Source: Bacillota bacterium (GTDB lineage: Bacteria; Bacillota; Desulfitobacteriia; Desulfitobacteriales; JAJXUE01). Taken from it: a stretch of 59,762 bases of DNA. A program made the translations under genes and the position numbers. The notes under the pieces are model-generated. The model searched no databases, was not told where the DNA came from, and saw only the letters and a program-made list of their open reading frames with translations. The DNA is taken from NCBI GenBank assembly GCA_021783135.1, contig JAJXUE010000001.1, positions 175,055 to 234,816 on the forward strand. Reading direction: 5' to 3'. Below are positions 9,168 to 40,393 of the stretch, piece by piece; within the stretch, counting starts at the first letter, position 1; each line of letters opens with the position of its first letter.

Positions 9168-10241
9168 TTATTGAATGTTAAAGATGCCCTTCATCCAACC
9201 GTTGGTGATCATAGCACCTTCCCAACCGTCCTTGCCACTGCCACATGCCGCTTCACACTGCCAAGTTAAGGCTGTAGGAGTAGACGGTGTGTGGAAGGTG
9301 AACTCCGTTGTACTATATTTTTCTGAAGCTGTCTTAACAGCGATAGGCACATTAAGCCCTATACTTGAAATTGTAATGGTATGTGCGACATTATTGGTAG
9401 GGATGGACGTAACGGTATTCCCGTCCAAAGCCATTGAGCCACCAACAGTCCCAGTCACCTTATTATCACCAGCCGGAATGCCTGCATTCCCATCATCATA
9501 ACTTTCGATTGCAATGGTAACATCTTGATTTTTCGGTAAGGTGAGGTTTGCTGGTACGAATTGCGGCCAACCTGGTTTTCCATCCATTTTGCCTGTTTCC
9601 ATAGTCATGGTGTAGAAGTTGTTTACAACGTTAAAGGTGCCCTTCATCCAATTATCAGTGGACATAGCGCCTTCCCAACCATCTTTGCCACTGCCACATG
9701 CCGCTTCACACTGCCAATTTAAGACTGTAGGAGTAGACGGTGTGTGGAAGGTGAACGTTGTTACACTATATTTTTCGGAAGCTGTCTTAACAGCGATAGG
9801 TACATTAAGCCCAAGGCTTGAAATTGTAATGGTATGTGCGACATCTTTGGTAGGGATAGATGTTACGGATTTTCCGTCTAAAGTCATTGAGCCACCAACA
9901 GTCCCGGTCACCTTATTATCACCAGTCGGAATGCCTGCATTCCCATCATCGTAACTGTTAATTGTAAGGGTAACATCTGCATTAGCGGGCAAAGTAAGGT
10001 TGCCCGGTACGAATTTGGGCCACCCTGGTTTCCCGTCCATCTTGCCCGTTTCCATGGTCATGGTAAAACTTGCTTTTGTAGCACTGTTGGATGCTGCTGT
10101 GGTGCTTACGGTTGAAGTGGTTGTCGGACTTGGACTAGATGGGCTGGCAGTTGATGCAGAAGTACCATTACTAGAGGCTCCACATCCTGCAAGTAGTAAA
10201 GCCGGTAACACTAAAACTGCAAGGAATACTTTCTTTTTCAT
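9168..10241 (-). CDS. Lipoprotein with two cupredoxin-like repeats
   Basis: 357-aa predicted lipoprotein. Signal peptide MKKKVFLAVLVLPALLLAGC with lipobox LAGC (Cys20), then a Ser/Thr linker, then two nearly identical domains of about 150 aa each. Each carries FTMTMETGKMDGKPGWP, YDDGNAGIP, VAHTITIS...GLNVPI, FTFHTPSTPT, and a closing WQCEAACGSGKDGWEGAM. The VAHT histidine, the CEAAC cysteines and the late methionine sit where a copper-binding beta-sandwich related to cytochrome oxidase subunit II would place ligands. Copper binding is therefore inferred, not shown. The start follows AGGGGAGGAAAAA on the minus strand. No oxidase or electron-transfer genes lie nearby. It could also be a non-metal surface protein. 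Confidence 0.75.
   Translation of the reverse strand: MKKKVFLAVLVLPALLLAGCGASSNGTSASTASPSSPSPTTTSTVSTTAASNSATKASFTMTMETGKMDGKPGWPKFVPGNLTLPANADVTLTINSYDDGNAGIPTGDNKVTGTVGGSMTLDGKSVTSIPTKDVAHTITISSLGLNVPIAVKTASEKYSVTTFTFHTPSTPTVLNWQCEAACGSGKDGWEGAMSTDNWMKGTFNVVNNFYTMTMETGKMDGKPGWPQFVPANLTLPKNQDVTIAIESYDDGNAGIPAGDNKVTGTVGGSMALDGNTVTSIPTNNVAHTITISSIGLNVPIAVKTASEKYSTTEFTFHTPSTPTALTWQCEAACGSGKDGWEGAMITNGWMKGIFNIQ
9171..10070 (-). repeat. Tandem internal duplication, about 450 bp per unit
   Basis: The two halves of the lipoprotein gene (about 9171-9619 and 9620-10070) remain very similar at DNA level. Long stretches such as those at 9275-9300 and 9731-9756 are shared almost base for base. This implies a recent duplication or ongoing gene conversion. 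Confidence 0.85.
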
Positions 10242-15299: not shown

Positions 15300-16040
15300 T
15301 TGGACGCCAGGTGGGATTTGGAAAACAATGGGATAGCTATGGCCCAAAATGACGCTCTTAGACGCGAAGCATATGTAGCAGACCACAGAACCTTTGTGTT
15401 CAGAGTAACCAGCAAGTTTTGTCGCAGGAGCTTAAATTGGGAACAAGATGATGAATTGTCAATAGCGTTAATAGCCTTCAACGAGGCCATTAATGCCTAT
15501 GACCTTACTAGAGGTGTGCCTTTTTTAGCCTTTGCCCGTAGGGTGATGTATAGTCGACTCACTGACTTTGTGCGCAGGGAAGTGAAACATCACACAATAA
15601 GCTTGGATGCAACACTTGAGTCTGAATCTAGCGCGCAATCTGTGCCGGAATCACAGGCAGCGTGGGCCAATTATTCGCGTGAACAGGCCGATCAAGAACG
15701 GGCGGAGGAATTACTCACCTATCAGGCCCGCCTGCAGGAGTTTGGCCTAAGTCTGAACGACCTAGTCAAGGTTTCGCCTAAACATCGCGATACGCGTGAA
15801 AACCTAATGCGAGCTGCCATAGTTTTGTGCTCCAATCCGGAACTACAACGTAGCTTACTGAAAAAAAGGCAGATGCCAATTAAAGAGCTGTCTATAGCAA
15901 GCAGTATCAACCTTAAAACTTTGGAACGGGGACGCAAGTATATCGTTTCAGTAGCACTGATAATTGCGGGCGGCGAGGAATTCTTGCACCTAAGAAGCTA
16001 CATTAAGTTTCCGGGCCAAGGAGGTGTGGTTAATGGCTAA
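15300..16040 (+). CDS. sigI: RNA polymerase sigma factor SigI
   Basis: Alternative sigma factor of the sigma-70 family, linked to heat and wall stress in Bacillus and to polysaccharide sensing in cellulolytic clostridia. 246 aa from TTG 15300, behind GGGGTGGGG. The N-terminal sigma-2 region contains WEQDDELSIALIAFNEAINAY and FLAFARRVMYSRLTDFVRRE; a C-terminal SigI-specific domain replaces region 4 (KELSIASSINLKTLERGRKYI). It overlaps rsgI by 8 bp, the standard sigma/anti-sigma pair. Confidence 0.92.
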   Translation: MDARWDLENNGIAMAQNDALRREAYVADHRTFVFRVTSKFCRRSLNWEQDDELSIALIAFNEAINAYDLTRGVPFLAFARRVMYSRLTDFVRREVKHHTISLDATLESESSAQSVPESQAAWANYSREQADQERAEELLTYQARLQEFGLSLNDLVKVSPKHRDTRENLMRAAIVLCSNPELQRSLLKKRQMPIKELSIASSINLKTLERGRKYIVSVALIIAGGEEFLHLRSYIKFPGQGGVVNG

Positions 16041-17208
16041 AATCAAAGGCGTTGTGGCGCAAATAGAGAAGAATAACTTTATATTAATTACGCCTCAGGG
16101 TGAATTTGTTAAAGCCAGAGCTGCGGGTCGCAAGCCAAACCTAGGACAGGAAATTGAAGGGGAACACTTTGCGCCGGCGTGGCGTAAGTTAGCGCTGGCC
16201 GCGGCTGCAGTGCTGCTAATCGGACTGATGCTGCCCTTTTATCCGCTACTTACCGCCTCCGCACAACCGGCCGCTTATGTTTCCTTGGATATCAACCCCA
16301 GTGTGGAACTGGGGGTAAACAAACAAGGCTCGGTGATAGAGGTGAAGGCCTTCAACCAGGCAGGCAAAGCCTTACTGGACGGACCCGGCGTTGCTCAAAC
16401 CAACGTGTATCAAGCGGTACAAAATTTAGTCAGCAAGGCTATTCAGGCTGGATATATTCAGCAAAGCGCGAGCAATTTGCTGGTAATAAGTTATACAGGC
16501 GATGGCTCCTATAAATTTAATCAACAGGAACTTAACAACTTAGTTAACAACTTAGTTACAGCGGCAAAGCTGCAGGTACAGGTGCTTGTTACCCCGACTA
16601 CATTAGCTGAACATAAACAGGCTTTAGCACAGCAAATGTCCCAGGGACAATATGCTTTGGTACAGGCAGCCAAAGTCAAAGGCTTAAAACTTGACACCGG
16701 CCTAGTGCGCAATAATGGTATCGAACAAGCCTTGCATGCTCAGGGGATAACGATAGCCGAAGTAGCTCCCGCAGTCACGTGGATGGGACCGCCAATCAAC
16801 ACACCTGTAGCGCCGCTCAACCCACTCAAGCCGCTACAAAGGGAACATAGACAACAGACCGAACCAAAGGCGAGTAGTCATTCTGGCACCACGCTTGAAA
16901 CTAATCAAGGTTCTCCTATCGGTGACGCCCAAAGTCACCTGCAAGGCCAACATAACAGCTCCGGTGACAACAGTTCCGCTGTCAATAGCTCCGGTCTCAG
17001 CAGCTCTGGCGATAATAGCTCAAAAGGTAATCACGAGGCTATACATCCGAGCGGCCACGGAACTGGCGAAATCACTGGCAAAACGGGGGGGATGCCTCAT
17101 TCGGGTGATGAAAGGCGACCTTCAAATACAACTGATACCGTTGGGAACAAGCCGAATGAGAACGATGCATCCGGTCAGTACAACAATGATAACCACGGGG
17201 ATCATTGA
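16033..17208 (+). CDS. rsgI: Anti-sigma factor RsgI
   Basis: Membrane anti-sigma factor that binds SigI with its short N-terminal cytoplasmic domain and senses outside signals through its exported part. 391 aa from ATG 16033, six bases after AAGGAGGTG. Residues 1-50 form the RsgI N-domain (KIKGVVAQIEKNNFILITPQ). One membrane segment is at about 55-75 (LALAAAAVLLIGLMLPFY), followed by the conserved periplasmic-type domain with AAYVSLDINPSVELGVN. From about residue 265 the tail is Ser/Asn/Gly/His-rich and probably disordered. There is no carbohydrate-binding or hydrolase module like those on Clostridium thermocellum RsgI proteins, so a wall or envelope cue is more likely. Confidence 0.9.
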   Translation: MAKIKGVVAQIEKNNFILITPQGEFVKARAAGRKPNLGQEIEGEHFAPAWRKLALAAAAVLLIGLMLPFYPLLTASAQPAAYVSLDINPSVELGVNKQGSVIEVKAFNQAGKALLDGPGVAQTNVYQAVQNLVSKAIQAGYIQQSASNLLVISYTGDGSYKFNQQELNNLVNNLVTAAKLQVQVLVTPTTLAEHKQALAQQMSQGQYALVQAAKVKGLKLDTGLVRNNGIEQALHAQGITIAEVAPAVTWMGPPINTPVAPLNPLKPLQREHRQQTEPKASSHSGTTLETNQGSPIGDAQSHLQGQHNSSGDNSSAVNSSGLSSSGDNSSKGNHEAIHPSGHGTGEITGKTGGMPHSGDERRPSNTTDTVGNKPNENDASGQYNNDNHGDH

Positions 17209-34937: not shown

Positions 34938-35627
34938 TTGTTTATACAACTTACGAATGTTTCCAAAACCTATCCCAATGGGGTTAGGGCATTGATTGAT
35001 ACCACTTTGCGCATCGATAAAGGAGAATTCGTTTTTTTGGTAGGACCTAGCGGCGCGGGAAAATCGACCATTGTCAAGCTCTTATTTCGGGAGGAACAAG
35101 CTTCGCGCGGTCAGGTGATGGTTAACGGCAAGAATTTAAGCCGGCTTAGGGACGGACGTGTTCCTTATTTTCGGCGTAATATCGGCATGATTTTTCAGGA
35201 TTTTAAACTTTTAGTTAATAAAACTGTGTATGAAAACGTGGCCTTTGCCCTGCAGGTTGTTGGTGCCAGTTCCAAAGAAATTAAGCAAAAGGTACCTGCG
35301 GTGTTGGCCTTGGTAGGGTTAGACAAAAAGGCTGATTTTCTGCCTACCCAGTTATCAGGTGGGGAGCAACAGCGCGTTTGCATAGCGCGAGCAGTTGTCA
35401 ACAATCCGCCATTGGTGTTGGCGGATGAACCAACCGGTAATCTCGATCCGGAAACCTCTTGGGATATTATGAAGCTATTGTTGGATATTAACAAAAGGGG
35501 CACAACGATTGTCATGGGCACACACGCCAAAGACATTGTCGACAGCCTGCGCAAGCGGGTTATTGCGATGGAGCGGGGACGCATTGTGCGGGACGAAGAG
35601 AAAGGAGTCTACGGCAATGAGTTTTAA
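34938..35627 (+). CDS. ftsE: Cell division ATPase FtsE
   Basis: 229-aa ATPase partner of FtsX, energising control of peptidoglycan hydrolases at the septum or side wall. TTG 34938 follows GGGAGGG by 8 bp. Walker A GPSGAGKSTIVKLL, Q-loop IFQDFKLL, signature LSGGEQQRV, Walker B LVLADEPTGNLDPE, H-loop MGTHA. FtsE-specific VSKTYPNGVRAL and VYENVAFAL support the call. Overlaps ftsX by 11 bp. Confidence 0.95.
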   Translation: MFIQLTNVSKTYPNGVRALIDTTLRIDKGEFVFLVGPSGAGKSTIVKLLFREEQASRGQVMVNGKNLSRLRDGRVPYFRRNIGMIFQDFKLLVNKTVYENVAFALQVVGASSKEIKQKVPAVLALVGLDKKADFLPTQLSGGEQQRVCIARAVVNNPPLVLADEPTGNLDPETSWDIMKLLLDINKRGTTIVMGTHAKDIVDSLRKRVIAMERGRIVRDEEKGVYGNEF

Positions 35628-36498
35628 CGCAATTCGCTATGCGGTGACCGAAACATTCTTGTCCTTGAAACGCAATGGTTGGATGGGGCTGGCCTCGGTA
35701 GCAACCGTAGCTATTTCGCTCATAATCTTAGGCTTTGCTGTGACCTTAGTCTATAACACTACAAAAATTACGGGTAATATCGAGTCAAATATCGAAATTT
35801 CGGCGTTCGTAAACACCGCAGCAACAGCAGCTCAGGTTCAGACACTGCAAAATGAAATCCAACAGCTGCCCGATGTCAAATCGGTATCCTTGATATCGAA
35901 AGAAATAGCCTTGCAGCAATATCAAGCCAGTTTAAACAATCAGGTTCTTTCCGATTTGGGCGGCAGTAATCCTCTGCCAGATAAATTTGTCGTTAAAGCC
36001 CAGCTGCCGGAGCAAGTTGCGGGTTTAGCCGGCAAAATAGGCAGTTTACGTGGTATCGATAAAGTTAATTACGGTCAAGGTGTGGTTGATCAACTCCTGA
36101 GTTTTACCCACTGGGCGCGTTGGGTTGGCATCTCCATTATTGCCCTGTTATCGATAGCTTCTATAGTTTTGATATCCATTACAATTCGCCTTACTGTCTA
36201 TGCCCGGCGGCGAGAAATTCAGATTATGAAGTTTGTAGGAGCCACCGACTGGTTTATTCGCTGGCCTTTTCTGATGGAAGGCCTAATCTTGGGCATTGGC
36301 GGTGCTGTTTTGGGCGGAATCGTTGTAATTTACGGTTACGAAAATTTGGTTAGTTACATCCAGGCAAATCTGTCCTTTGTACCTGTTGTCAAAGACCAAG
36401 GTTTTATGGTTATTTTGGCAGCCGTGTTACTGGGCTCCGGCGCTCTGATCGGTGCTGTTGGCAGTATGTTTTCCTTACACAAGTTTCTCAAGGTTTAA
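35617..36498 (+). CDS. ftsX: Cell division permease-like protein FtsX
   Basis: 293-aa membrane protein with four helices: one near residues 22-45 (GLASVATVAISLIILGFAV), then an extracellular domain (about 45-165), then three helices in the FtsX/MacB C-terminal region (WVGISIIALLSIASIVLI, FLMEGLILGIGGAVLGGI, FMVILAAVLLGSGALIGAV). The cytoplasmic RRREIQIMKFVGATDWFIR loop contacts FtsE. Start ATG 35617 after AAAGGAG; a longer open frame from 35509 overlaps ftsE deeply and has no ribosome site. The M23 coiled-coil hydrolase often encoded next in Clostridia is missing. Confidence 0.95.
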   Translation: MSFNAIRYAVTETFLSLKRNGWMGLASVATVAISLIILGFAVTLVYNTTKITGNIESNIEISAFVNTAATAAQVQTLQNEIQQLPDVKSVSLISKEIALQQYQASLNNQVLSDLGGSNPLPDKFVVKAQLPEQVAGLAGKIGSLRGIDKVNYGQGVVDQLLSFTHWARWVGISIIALLSIASIVLISITIRLTVYARRREIQIMKFVGATDWFIRWPFLMEGLILGIGGAVLGGIVVIYGYENLVSYIQANLSFVPVVKDQGFMVILAAVLLGSGALIGAVGSMFSLHKFLKV

Positions 36499-36629
36499 GC
36501 CAGCCTGCGTCGAAAAATATTTTGCTGTTTTGTTTTTGGTCAACAATGGTGTAGTATTAGCATATACCTCTAAAGGACGAACTCTAGCATGTCATAGGTG
36601 GCGAGAATTAGTATAGGCGGGTGTTGTTA

Positions 36630-37808
36630 TTGTCGGAACGTAAAAAGATTTGGCTGGGGATTTTAGCGGTTATTGTGCTATTTAGCTTTATAGTGACAGG
36701 TACCGTTGCTAGTGTAGTAATTACGAATTATGATCATATTGGTCGCTTAATGAAGATTGTTAGTCTCATTAAGAGTGACTATCTCCAGCCTGTGTCAGAT
36801 ACCCAGTTGATAGACGGCGCTATGAATGGCATTGTGCAATCGCTTGGTGACCAGTACTCTGTCTATTTAAATCCCAAAGATAATCAACAAATGTTTGAAT
36901 CCATTGAGGGTCAATTTGGCGGAGTAGGTATAGTTCTAAGTTTAAAAGATCCCCAGCATTTGACCATAGTAAAGACCATCCCGAATAGCCCAGCAGCAGC
37001 ATCTGGTATTAAGTCAGGCGACATCATCACCAAAGTTGATAAAGTCGAGACCTCAACCATTTCTGCCGATAAAGCTGTTACTATGATGCGTGGCAAAGAA
37101 GGTACCAATGTAACCCTAACGGTATATCGTCCCGCGACAAAACAAACGCTCACATTCACACTCACGCGGGCCATTGTTTCCGTGCCCACGGTGCAAGGTG
37201 AAATGTTGCCGGGAAGTAATGATATAGCATATATAAATATTAGCCAGTTTGCTAGTGATACTGGAACGGAAATGGGTCAGGTCTTAAGTCAATTAATGCC
37301 GAAAAAACCGAAAGGTATAATCTTGGACTTGCGCTATAACCCAGGGGGAGAACTTAATGCGGCAGTTCAGACTGCCAGCTATTTCATTCCTAAAGGGCCG
37401 GTTGTGTATATCGTAAACAAATATGGACACACCGATACGGAACAGGCCGCAGACCACTATCTTGGACTCCCGCTTGTGGTTTTAGTCAATCAGGATTCTG
37501 CTTCAGCAGCTGAAATTTTGTCCGGAGCGATTAAGGATTATGGCACTGGAACGTTAGTAGGAACGAAAACATTTGGGAAAGGTATTGTTCAGACTATTTT
37601 TCAGTTAGATGGGGGCGCGGGTGTTAAATTAACCACTGCCAAATACCTAACACCTAAAAAGCACGACATCAATCATATCGGTATCGAACCAAATGTGCAG
37701 GTCGAGCTTGGCAAAGGGCAAACTGTAGTGCAACCACCGAATTCTACCAGTGATTTTGACAACCAATTGCTGAAAGCAATTGCTGTTTTAAAAGCAAAGA
37801 TGAAATAA
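36630..37808 (+). CDS. ctpA: C-terminal processing peptidase CtpA (S41)
   Basis: 392-aa secreted or membrane-anchored serine protease with a PDZ domain. One N-terminal membrane segment (IWLGILAVIVLFSFIVTG). PDZ at about 95-180 (GVGIVLSLKDPQHLTIVKTI, GIKSGDIITKVD). The protease core has ILDLRYNPGGELNAAV, catalytic Ser292 in NQDSASAAEIL and Lys317 in FGKGIVQT, 25 residues apart as in E. coli Tsp. Start uncertain: TTG 36630 (MSERKKIWL) lies 6 bp after GGCGGGTG; GTG 36621 and TTG 36624 are alternatives. It follows ftsEX, as in related genomes, and is followed by a degenerate paralogue. Confidence 0.93.
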   Translation: MSERKKIWLGILAVIVLFSFIVTGTVASVVITNYDHIGRLMKIVSLIKSDYLQPVSDTQLIDGAMNGIVQSLGDQYSVYLNPKDNQQMFESIEGQFGGVGIVLSLKDPQHLTIVKTIPNSPAAASGIKSGDIITKVDKVETSTISADKAVTMMRGKEGTNVTLTVYRPATKQTLTFTLTRAIVSVPTVQGEMLPGSNDIAYINISQFASDTGTEMGQVLSQLMPKKPKGIILDLRYNPGGELNAAVQTASYFIPKGPVVYIVNKYGHTDTEQAADHYLGLPLVVLVNQDSASAAEILSGAIKDYGTGTLVGTKTFGKGIVQTIFQLDGGAGVKLTTAKYLTPKKHDINHIGIEPNVQVELGKGQTVVQPPNSTSDFDNQLLKAIAVLKAKMK

Positions 37809-37818
37809 ATCTATGCCG

Positions 37819-37846
37819 ATGGCCGCAGGGTAATCCTTGCGGCCAT
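37819..37846 (+). terminator. Hairpin after ctpA
   Basis: ATGGCCGCA/TGCGGCCAT stem with a loop of about 10 nt. A weak U-tract (GTTATTTA) follows. Confidence 0.5.
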
Positions 37847-37920
37847 GTTATTTACTGACACCGGAAATTAGTTCTAGCAGGCATGCTTGTACCATAAAGT
37901 AGAACTAAGGGGGTGAAAGT

Positions 37921-38763
37921 GTGCCCGGCAAGAAGTTTAAACGTGCTATACTCGCGCTTGTTGTTAGCTCGGTGCTGGTTAATAGCTTAGTGGGAGCAGT
38001 ATTAATTACTAACTATCAGCATCTGGGCAGCTTAGTGAAAGTCGTATTACTAGTGAGAGGTCTGGCCCTGCCGCAGGTAACGTGGGGGAAAATGCTAGAT
38101 GGAGCCACAGGGGGAATAGTCGCGTCGCTGCAGGATGAACATTCACTTTATCCTGCACCTGCAAATTATCCGCAGGCAGCAAGGCAGATTGAAAACTCTG
38201 TTATGGCTAAGATAATTTACATACCGCAGAAAGTAGGCTATATCAAAATCAATAGTTTCACTGCTCGGACCGAGCAGGACTTAGCTATGGTATGGCCGAC
38301 AGTAACGCATGCTGAAGGCTTAATCTTAGATCTGCGGGATAACCCAGGTGGCAGTCTGAGCGCAGCAGTTGGCGTAGCAAACTACTTCTTGCCTCCCGGT
38401 CCCGCGGTGCAGTTGGTGTACGGCAATGGTAAGCGGGAAAGCTACCCTGTGCAAGGGAAAGGACTAAAGCTGCCGGTAGTTGTATTGGTTAACCACAAGA
38501 CCGCACGTGAGGCCGAAGTTCTAGCTGCAGCCGAACAGGATAAAGGAACGAGTTTGTTAGTCGGAACTACGACGAGGGGCATAGGAGTACGCCAAACTGT
38601 CTATCAAATAGACGCGAAGACAAGTTTGCAGCTTGCTACGGCTAAGTATCTCTCCCCTCTGGGACGTGGCATTGACACAGTGGGAATTGAGCCTGATGTC
38701 AGTGTAGCGGCTGAGTCAGAAATACTTGATGCTGGGTTGAAGGTTTTAGCAGCAGCTCTGTAG
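37921..38763 (+). CDS. S41 pseudoprotease, CtpA paralogue without PDZ
   Basis: 280-aa paralogue of the preceding CtpA that keeps the membrane anchor and fold but looks inactive. The N-terminus aligns (VVSSVLVNSLVGAVLITNYQH with VVITNYDHIGRLMK). It then jumps from LQDEHSLYPAPANYPQ straight to VGYIKINSFTARTEQDL, so the PDZ domain is gone. The core retains GLILDLRDNPGGSLSAAVG. At the catalytic positions Ser becomes Arg196 (NHKTAREAEVL) and Lys becomes Ile221 (TTTRGIGVRQT), still 25 residues apart. GTG 37921 follows AAGGGGGTG. The intact frame argues for a maintained non-catalytic role, for example as a scaffold or inhibitor of CtpA. Confidence 0.88.
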   Translation: MPGKKFKRAILALVVSSVLVNSLVGAVLITNYQHLGSLVKVVLLVRGLALPQVTWGKMLDGATGGIVASLQDEHSLYPAPANYPQAARQIENSVMAKIIYIPQKVGYIKINSFTARTEQDLAMVWPTVTHAEGLILDLRDNPGGSLSAAVGVANYFLPPGPAVQLVYGNGKRESYPVQGKGLKLPVVVLVNHKTAREAEVLAAAEQDKGTSLLVGTTTRGIGVRQTVYQIDAKTSLQLATAKYLSPLGRGIDTVGIEPDVSVAAESEILDAGLKVLAAAL

Positions 38764-38935: not shown

Positions 38936-40393
38936 ATGAATCCCCATAAAGTAACAGTGTATGCCTTAGCATTACTTATTGCCTTAAGCGGTTTTGGCAC
39001 CGGCTGTGGTGCCATTAATAAGTTAATGGGGCGTTCCCAACCCAAGCAGTCGCAATCCTCTGAGCAGAAGAAAGGCAAGATTGCAGTGCTGTTAGCACCT
39101 GAAGCAGAAAACCAAGCCCAAATTAAAAAAGGCTTGCAGGATGCCGCGAAAAAAGAAGGAGTTAAGTTGGTTTTTCTCACAGGAGAAACGGCACAAAAAC
39201 TTACCCAACAAGGTAAAGATGTTAAGGCCATTATCATGCAAGGCGGCAACCAAGTTCAGAGCTCAAACCCTATGACCCAAAACGAACAGAAGTCAAAGGC
39301 ACCAATTGTAGCCATCGACCAGGTGCCGGGTGTAGATGTTGCCGCTATGGTTATGCCTGACTACTATCATATTGGTGAATTACAAGCTGATTATCTCAAA
39401 GCCACTTTAAAGCAAGGGAATGTGGTGTTACTTCAGTCCGCGCAGCCTGGTGCCGAAGATGTGGTTGCAGGCGTCAAAACAGGTCTGGCACACAATGCGA
39501 GTTTAAAGATAACTCAGACCTTTGCTAGTCCTACCAAGAATACATCACCCACAGCTGCCTTAGGCGAATACCTTAAAGCAAATCGTACCAAGGTTCAAGC
39601 TATTGTGGCTACTGACAGCAAGTTGGCATTAGAGGCAATTGAGGTACTGAAGGAAAATGCTTTGAGTAAGCAGGTAATGCTCGTTGGGGCCGGAACCGAT
39701 ATCAAGGCAGTTGAGAAGATTGCAAGCGGTGAGTTGAATGCGGATGTGGACAAATCGCCCTATTTGCAGGGCTTATATGCGTATAAATTGGCTTCGCAGT
39801 TGAGTAAACAGCAGGCCACCGATGCTGATAAGACCGTTATTACATCAACTGGCGAAACTCCAACCAAGTTGGTGCCGGTTCAATTAGTACGCCGCGAAAA
39901 TCTGGCGCAGTTTCAAAAAATTTATACCCAGCCAGTAGTTGAACCTGAGGCGGAAGCCGGGAAAGAAAAATCAGGCCAAGCAATGCCAAACGCCGGTGGC
40001 CAAGCGGCAGCAGGAGGCTCTGAAGACGGTAGCGCGCAAGGTAGTAGCTCTGAGGGCGGTGGCGCGCAAGGCGGGCAGAGCGGCAAAAACCAAGGCGGCG
40101 GGCAGCAAAGTCAAGCTACAGCAAGCGGTCAAGCGGCCAAAGCGGCGGGAGTTGCTAAGGTCCGAGAAAAGATACGCACGGAGACAACGCGGGAAATGCT
40201 GGGCCAAGACGGTAAGGTAATCGGGACCGAAAGAGAAGTTAAAGAAGAAGTACGCACTCTCCCGCAGGCTTTACTGGAGGCTACCCAAAAAGAAGCTCAA
40301 GCCCAAGCCCAAAAGTCGCAAGGTCAAACTCAAGACCAACAATCCCAGGACAAAAAATCGTCGCAAGGTCAAAGCAGTAAAGAAGATCAGTAG
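38936..40393 (+). CDS. Orphan periplasmic-binding-fold lipoprotein with Gln/Gly/Ser-rich tail
   Basis: 485-aa exported protein. Probable lipoprotein: hydrophobic signal then GFGTGC (Cys25), a slightly off-consensus lipobox. Residues about 45-325 resemble sugar-binding proteins of the RbsB/LacI type 1 fold: KIAVLLAPEAENQAQIKKGL, IIMQGGNQVQ, GELQADYLKATL, AIVATDSKLALEAIEVL, VMLVGAGTDIKAVEKIASGELN. The last 140 residues are low complexity (Gln, Gly, Ser, Ala), interrupted by a charged segment with REKIRTETTREMLGQ and EREVKEEVRTLP, and end in a Gln-rich run. No permease or ATPase is adjacent. It may act as a sensor or wall-associated protein. ATG 38936 follows AGGGGTGATT. Confidence 0.8.
   Translation: MNPHKVTVYALALLIALSGFGTGCGAINKLMGRSQPKQSQSSEQKKGKIAVLLAPEAENQAQIKKGLQDAAKKEGVKLVFLTGETAQKLTQQGKDVKAIIMQGGNQVQSSNPMTQNEQKSKAPIVAIDQVPGVDVAAMVMPDYYHIGELQADYLKATLKQGNVVLLQSAQPGAEDVVAGVKTGLAHNASLKITQTFASPTKNTSPTAALGEYLKANRTKVQAIVATDSKLALEAIEVLKENALSKQVMLVGAGTDIKAVEKIASGELNADVDKSPYLQGLYAYKLASQLSKQQATDADKTVITSTGETPTKLVPVQLVRRENLAQFQKIYTQPVVEPEAEAGKEKSGQAMPNAGGQAAAGGSEDGSAQGSSSEGGGAQGGQSGKNQGGGQQSQATASGQAAKAAGVAKVREKIRTETTREMLGQDGKVIGTEREVKEEVRTLPQALLEATQKEAQAQAQKSQGQTQDQQSQDKKSSQGQSSKEDQ

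Follow-up and report, generated by a model that had tools for sequence, protein, structure and literature searches.

A Predicted Pseudoprotease of the C-terminal Processing Peptidase Family Encoded beside an Intact ctpA Gene in a Bacillota Bacterium

The ctpA Locus and Its Expression Signals

The stretch of DNA analyzed here (the window, 59,762 nucleotides) comes from a draft genome of 2.7 Mb, in which it lies on contig C9. Within it, ftsE (34938–35627, plus strand, assigned from its open reading frame and ABC motifs), ftsX (about 35617–36498, plus strand, assigned from its open reading frame), ctpA, the gene for the protein designated CtpA2, and a lipoprotein gene all run in one direction and are followed by uvrB and uvrA. 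The ctpA gene (36621–37808, plus strand) encodes an intact CTP of 395 residues with an anchor, a dimerization region, a PDZ domain, and an S41 domain containing Ser295, Lys320, and Gln324. The CtpA2 gene (37921–38763, plus strand) starts with GTG and encodes a protein of 280 residues without a PDZ domain, classified from its open reading frame, Pfam, alignment, and an AlphaFold model as a CTP/S41 pseudoprotease; the lipoprotein gene, of the periplasmic-binding type, lies 3' of it (38936–40393) in the same direction as ctpA. Open reading frame calls and alignment agree with the original prediction that a 280-residue S41 protein stands in tandem with an intact CtpA. These two proteins are the only S41 matches in the whole genome; a contig scan with the CtpA2 sequence alone gave no match, and one with an alignment returned general CTPs only. 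Elsewhere in the window, the minus strand at 9168–10241 encodes a 357-residue lipoprotein built from a tandem pair of nearly identical halves, each about 145 residues long, and 15300–17208 encodes a SigI-like sigma factor and, after it, an RsgI-like membrane protein whose tail is of low complexity.

The family used for comparison consists of three genomes, that of the window (G000) and two from one other genus (G001 and G002). The usual neighbor of ftsX, a gene for a PcsB-like protein with a coiled coil and an M23 hydrolase domain, adjoins ctpA in 65 of the 74 genomes of the order, including G001 and G002, but is absent from the window locus, where no remnant of it was found in the 122 bases between ftsX and ctpA (36499–36620). 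No PcsB was found elsewhere in the window genome, the best CC_PcsB score being 21 bits against a cut-off of 27. The absence is not unique, as initially considered, since genus g16 (G031 and G041) also has no PcsB-like gene at the locus, and its single ctpA is intact. At 36499–36660, ctpA has a conserved promoter-like sequence of its own (GTAGTATTA...GCATATA) that is common to the three family genomes. The partner of FtsEX in B. subtilis is CwlO, and by analogy FtsEX of the window genome could have as its partner a coiled-coil NlpC/P60 hydrolase of 385 residues with a weak PcsB coiled-coil score (978–2132 of L160, on contig C66). The absence from the genome of the PcsB-type hydrolase normally encoded between ftsX and ctpA weakens the proposal that CtpA2 serves FtsEX-linked wall hydrolysis.

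A terminator-like hairpin follows ctpA (37819–37846, plus strand), with an equivalent G+C-rich hairpin in both relatives; because such a hairpin separates ctpA from the second gene in all three genomes, CtpA2 is probably transcribed on its own. Between the hairpin and the ribosome-binding site lies an upstream element, GTTCTAG-N15-CATAAAG (37871–37899, plus strand), which is not a good fit to the sigma-70 consensus and may represent a promoter or operator. Its 3' half, GCTTGTACCATAAAG (37885–37899), is identical at 15 of 15 positions in all three family genomes, between which neutral sites are saturated, and the spacer has otherwise diverged. An exact match to GCTTGTACCATAAAG occurs once in each of these genomes, and matches with two mismatches are close in number to control counts, so that a role as a regulon signal was rejected; as there is no convincing set of further sites, the sequence is taken as locus-specific. 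The ribosome-binding site is AAGGGGGTG (37907–37915, plus strand), and a G-rich site is also present in G001 and G002. An inverted repeat upstream of CtpA2, TTAGTTCTA/TAGAACTAA, was dismissed because it is not conserved in the relatives.

Catalytic Residues, Domains, and Predicted Structure of CtpA2

The sole Pfam domain in CtpA2 is Peptidase_S41 (PF03572; 134 bits against a cut-off of 24), whereas the neighboring CtpA has PDZ and S41 domains. With TIGR00225 (prc, C-terminal processing peptidase), CtpA2 scores 134.6 bits, below the cut-off of 218.6, and CtpA scores 316; CtpA2 is also below the threshold of the CtpB_N-like Pfam model. Pfam finds no PDZ domain in its 280 residues, a length that compares with about 375–395 in active CTPs. 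The N-terminal part, on the plus strand like the features that follow, comprises an anchor helix (residues 4–30; 37930–38010), seen in the sequence and helical in the AlphaFold model, and the predicted equivalent of the N-terminal dimerization region of CTPs (residues 31–72, with helices at 32–48 and 55–69; 38011–38136), placed from the model and with its role taken from published structures (PMC3808539, PMC8764530). The alignment places the scar of the excised PDZ domain at residues 92–96 (38194–38208), where QIE is fused to NSV and about 85–90 residues are missing relative to the orthologues.

Assignment of the catalytic triad follows Ser309, Lys334, and Gln338 of B. subtilis CtpB (PMC3808539). 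In the alignment, CtpA Ser295 corresponds to Arg196 of CtpA2 (codon cgt, 38506–38508), with the next Ala changed to Glu197, and CtpA Lys320 corresponds to Ile221 (codon ata, 38581–38583), but the third residue of the triad, Gln324 of CtpA, is kept as Gln225 (codon caa, 38593–38595). The Val to Arg224 change, like that to Glu197, places a charge beside the old active site. The replacements of Ser by Arg196 and of Lys by Ile221 that were originally predicted are thus confirmed, and the anchor helix, ribosome site, and full reading frame are all present. With Ser and Lys lost and with Arg196, Glu197, and Arg224 now in or next to the catalytic motifs, CtpA2 is expected to be unable to hydrolyze peptides. 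The alternative that it retains enzymatic activity through a catalytic residue at a new position could appeal to the retention of Gln225 and of the Gly-rich oxyanion motifs, but it would have to accommodate the loss of both nucleophile and base, charged residues in the site, and an alignment with no conserved replacement Ser or Lys at neighboring positions, and we regard it as very improbable.

The selectivity of these changes can be judged from 83 active CTPs of many phyla, among which 16 alignable columns are invariant. CtpA2 keeps 14 of the 16, and the two that changed are the catalytic Ser and Lys; by counting, the chance of exactly that pair among 16 invariant residues is 1/120. A 17th invariant residue, CtpA Arg183, falls at the border of the segment missing from CtpA2 with the PDZ domain and was counted as deleted; its equation with CtpB Arg168 was rejected, as a better alignment puts Arg183 in the deleted segment. 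The pattern indicates that selection has released only the catalytic Ser and Lys and the PDZ gate.

An AlphaFold2 model of CtpA2, computed from an alignment of 42 CTPs, of which 40 came from fetched loci and the other two are the proteins of the window, has a mean pLDDT of 88.8 and a pTM of 0.75. It contains the anchor helix, the two dimerization helices, the cap helix, and the core, and residues 92–94, in the PDZ scar, are the only segment with a pLDDT below 50. The top Foldseek matches in the PDB are P. aeruginosa CtpA (7rpq) and B. subtilis CtpB (4c2c), with TM scores of about 0.7, and CtpA2 is, by descent and predicted fold, a member of the S41/CTP family. These two proteins (MEROPS S41A) are its best matches by both sequence and fold and have in common with it an anchor or signal, the dimerization helices, the cap, the S41 core, and the triad Gln, but CtpA2 lacks their PDZ domain and has the catalytic Ser and Lys replaced. 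Foldseek also matches a PDZ-deleted form of Prc (6iqu) and modules of the interphotoreceptor retinoid-binding protein (IRBP). The Prc deletion resembles CtpA2 as a PDZ-less CTP, which has a stable fold with a misaligned active site (PMC6686036), but it is a laboratory construct of an active enzyme from a monomeric branch of the family.

The modules of IRBP have, like CtpA2, an S41-like fold without a PDZ domain; they have no protease function and bind retinoids. These matches suggest an alternative in which a CtpA2 homodimer is a stand-alone binding protein, its old substrate tunnel or cap holding a peptide or small ligand and CtpA being uninvolved. Separation from ctpA by a terminator, the upstream element of its own, and a dimerization region that is not specially matched to CtpA are compatible with this. 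IRBP differs from CtpA2 as a secreted, multi-module lipid carrier of vertebrates with neither dimerization helices nor a membrane anchor. The introduction of Arg and Glu at the old active site and the tandem placement with ctpA in all three genomes speak against a stand-alone binding protein, which we consider unlikely.

Origin of the Second Copy and Selection on CtpA2

In G001 and G002, a second CTP is encoded directly after ctpA. It is orthologous to CtpA2, with 52% identity over 277 sites, and has the same upstream element, but it keeps the PDZ domain, the Ser (in TASAAE), and the Lys (in TYGKG), all of which CtpA2 lacks, and is presumably active. Because the orthologues in the same place are intact in both relatives, the three losses fall on the lineage of the window, and the PDZ domain has truly been excised from CtpA2, as was originally predicted. 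The further claim that PDZ, Ser, and Lys were lost together holds in that the losses share one lineage, but their order cannot be read.

The three second copies form one clade in the tree (100/100). Their lineage, which is 39–45% identical to ctpA and in tandem with it in all three family genomes, is placed with moderate support closer to the CTPs of Pelotomaculum relatives and to that of a Peptococcaceae MAG (L047) than to the neighboring ctpA. The CTP of the MAG (5947–7149 of L047) groups with the second-copy lineage at 92/97, and its fetched flanks contain no ftsE or ftsX. Given this tree position, CtpA2 is best described as an old paralogue or a transferred gene and not a fresh duplicate; recent tandem duplication of ctpA was rejected, the second copy being an older CTP lineage of uncertain source. 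Its designation as a paralogue beside CtpA stands as regards a tandem S41 relative but not as a recent copy of the neighboring gene. Across the remaining 71 genomes of the order, a single ctpA-type gene (about 400 residues) is the general rule, usually with a second S41 protein (about 560 residues) encoded elsewhere, and this larger protein is absent from all three family genomes. A genome of the same class (G079) has sequence in common with Heliophilum fasciatum, which suggests that the window belongs to the part of the Firmicutes that includes heliobacteria and Desulfitobacterium.

The branch leading to CtpA2 in the tree is about twice as long as those of the active orthologues (0.80 versus about 0.46). 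This faster evolution, together with the absence of the PcsB-like gene that is present in both relatives and most of the order, would be accounted for if CtpA2 were a relic: a PcsB-like M23 wall hydrolase, encoded two genes upstream, may have been processed or degraded by the second CTP, and once the hydrolase was lost, the protease would have been freed from selection, would have lost Ser, Lys, and PDZ, and would now be in early decay. MepM is among the wall hydrolases that P. aeruginosa CtpA degrades (PMC6050968), which makes the disappearance of a hydrolase client a reasonable rival cause for the loss of protease function. It should be recognized, however, that loss of PcsB and loss of protease function are one coincidence on one lineage, which proves nothing, and that g16, the one other genus examined that lacks PcsB at the locus, keeps its sole ctpA intact, although the second copy was never there.

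The substitution pattern also argues against a relic. Identity between CtpA2 and the active orthologue at codon positions 1, 2, and 3 is 61, 70, and 31%, compared with 77, 91, and 33% for ctpA in the same genome pair. Since the two genes are saturated to the same degree at third positions, it is justified to tie the dS of CtpA2 to that of ctpA in the home-made codon likelihood model with which ω was estimated. With dS tied, ω is 0.14 for CtpA2, 0.11 for the active second copies (difference p = 0.5), and 0.044 for ctpA, and ω = 1 is rejected for CtpA2 (2ΔlnL = 46.7); with dS untied, the same test gives 2ΔlnL of 3.65 but is weak and uninformative because dS is saturated. In simulations of neutral decay that scored stops only, the frame remained stop-free in 8.6% of runs after 100 substitutions (0.36/codon, about 6% of the branch) and in 1.5% after 150. 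Codon-position identity, ω, and the stop-free frame together therefore indicate constraint for nearly all of the branch, and averaged over the branch, CtpA2 is, on these sequence measures, under purifying selection. Because the dead form is found in one genome only, selection before the loss of catalysis is not separable from selection after it, and with three genomes a very recent start of decay, within less than about 6% of the branch, may have occurred. Random decay, moreover, is unlikely to strike precisely Ser and Lys out of all the invariant residues, and the upstream element is untouched. We consider the relic explanation improbable.

The distribution of the changes is also informative. 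The dimerization helices are 62% identical to those of the active orthologue and two later core segments 62–67%, compared with 50% for the active-site stretch and 25% for the PDZ-facing cap helix, whereas no segment of ctpA is better conserved than its active-site stretch (82%). Constraint on CtpA2 appears to have moved off catalysis and stayed on the fold and dimerization. Retention of the gene, as the original prediction proposed, is supported by purifying selection across the branch, losses among invariant residues that are confined to catalysis, the conserved upstream element, and the confident predicted fold; ω is not near 1, and close relatives for a frameshift comparison do not exist.

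A Possible Dead Subunit of CTP Dimers

The retention of fold, membrane anchor, control sequence, and reading frame suggests that CtpA2 probably has a non-cutting job and is not junk; that it is kept and non-proteolytic we regard as probable with good confidence. For the fuller description of CtpA2 as a membrane-anchored CTP pseudoprotease kept for a non-cutting function, likely as a dead protomer in dimers of the CTP type, our confidence is evenly balanced. CtpB molecules, like those of P. aeruginosa CtpA, are joined to each other by a four-helix bundle of their N-terminal helices (PMC3808539, PMC8764530), and the retained helices of CtpA2 would allow dimers of this type, with CtpA or with itself. 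As a dead protomer, CtpA2 might lower or redirect the activity of CtpA at the membrane; alternatively, it might hold CtpA clients uncut. Deletion of the PDZ domain alone makes CtpB a constitutively active protease (PMC3808539), and because removal from a live enzyme would thus leave an ungated protease, the loss of catalysis probably preceded or accompanied that of the PDZ domain.

A partnership with CtpA is plausible from the model, but that CtpA2 works by pairing with CtpA is a tentative proposal. The dimerization region is 45% identical to that of CtpA from the same genome in CtpA2 and 45–48% in the active orthologues, which is no special match, and segment identities gave no signal of co-evolution or gene conversion between the two proteins. 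The most specific version, in which CtpA2 uses the N-terminal helices common to both proteins to pair with CtpA, and serves as an inbuilt subunit, either dominant-negative or client-holding, that evolved after loss of the FtsEX-linked PcsB hydrolase, is doubtful. Precedents for such an arrangement include iRhoms, which are pseudoproteases, and the trypanosome prozyme (PMC5201418), dead paralogues that stand beside an active relative and regulate it, much as CtpA2 appears to be dead beside CtpA; however, their folds are unrelated to that of CtpA2, and regulation is demonstrated there and inferred here.

CTPs control wall hydrolases and sporulation signaling, and the modes of their own control in the papers cited are a PDZ gate or a partner lipoprotein. 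In a limited search of the open-licence literature, no pseudoprotease among bacterial CTPs came to light, a weak indication of novelty. If the interpretation is correct, CtpA2 would be a natural CTP without gate and catalysis but with the dimerization part kept, and would be a system in which control by dead subunits could readily be tested; the active orthologues in the sister genus provide a natural before-and-after pair.
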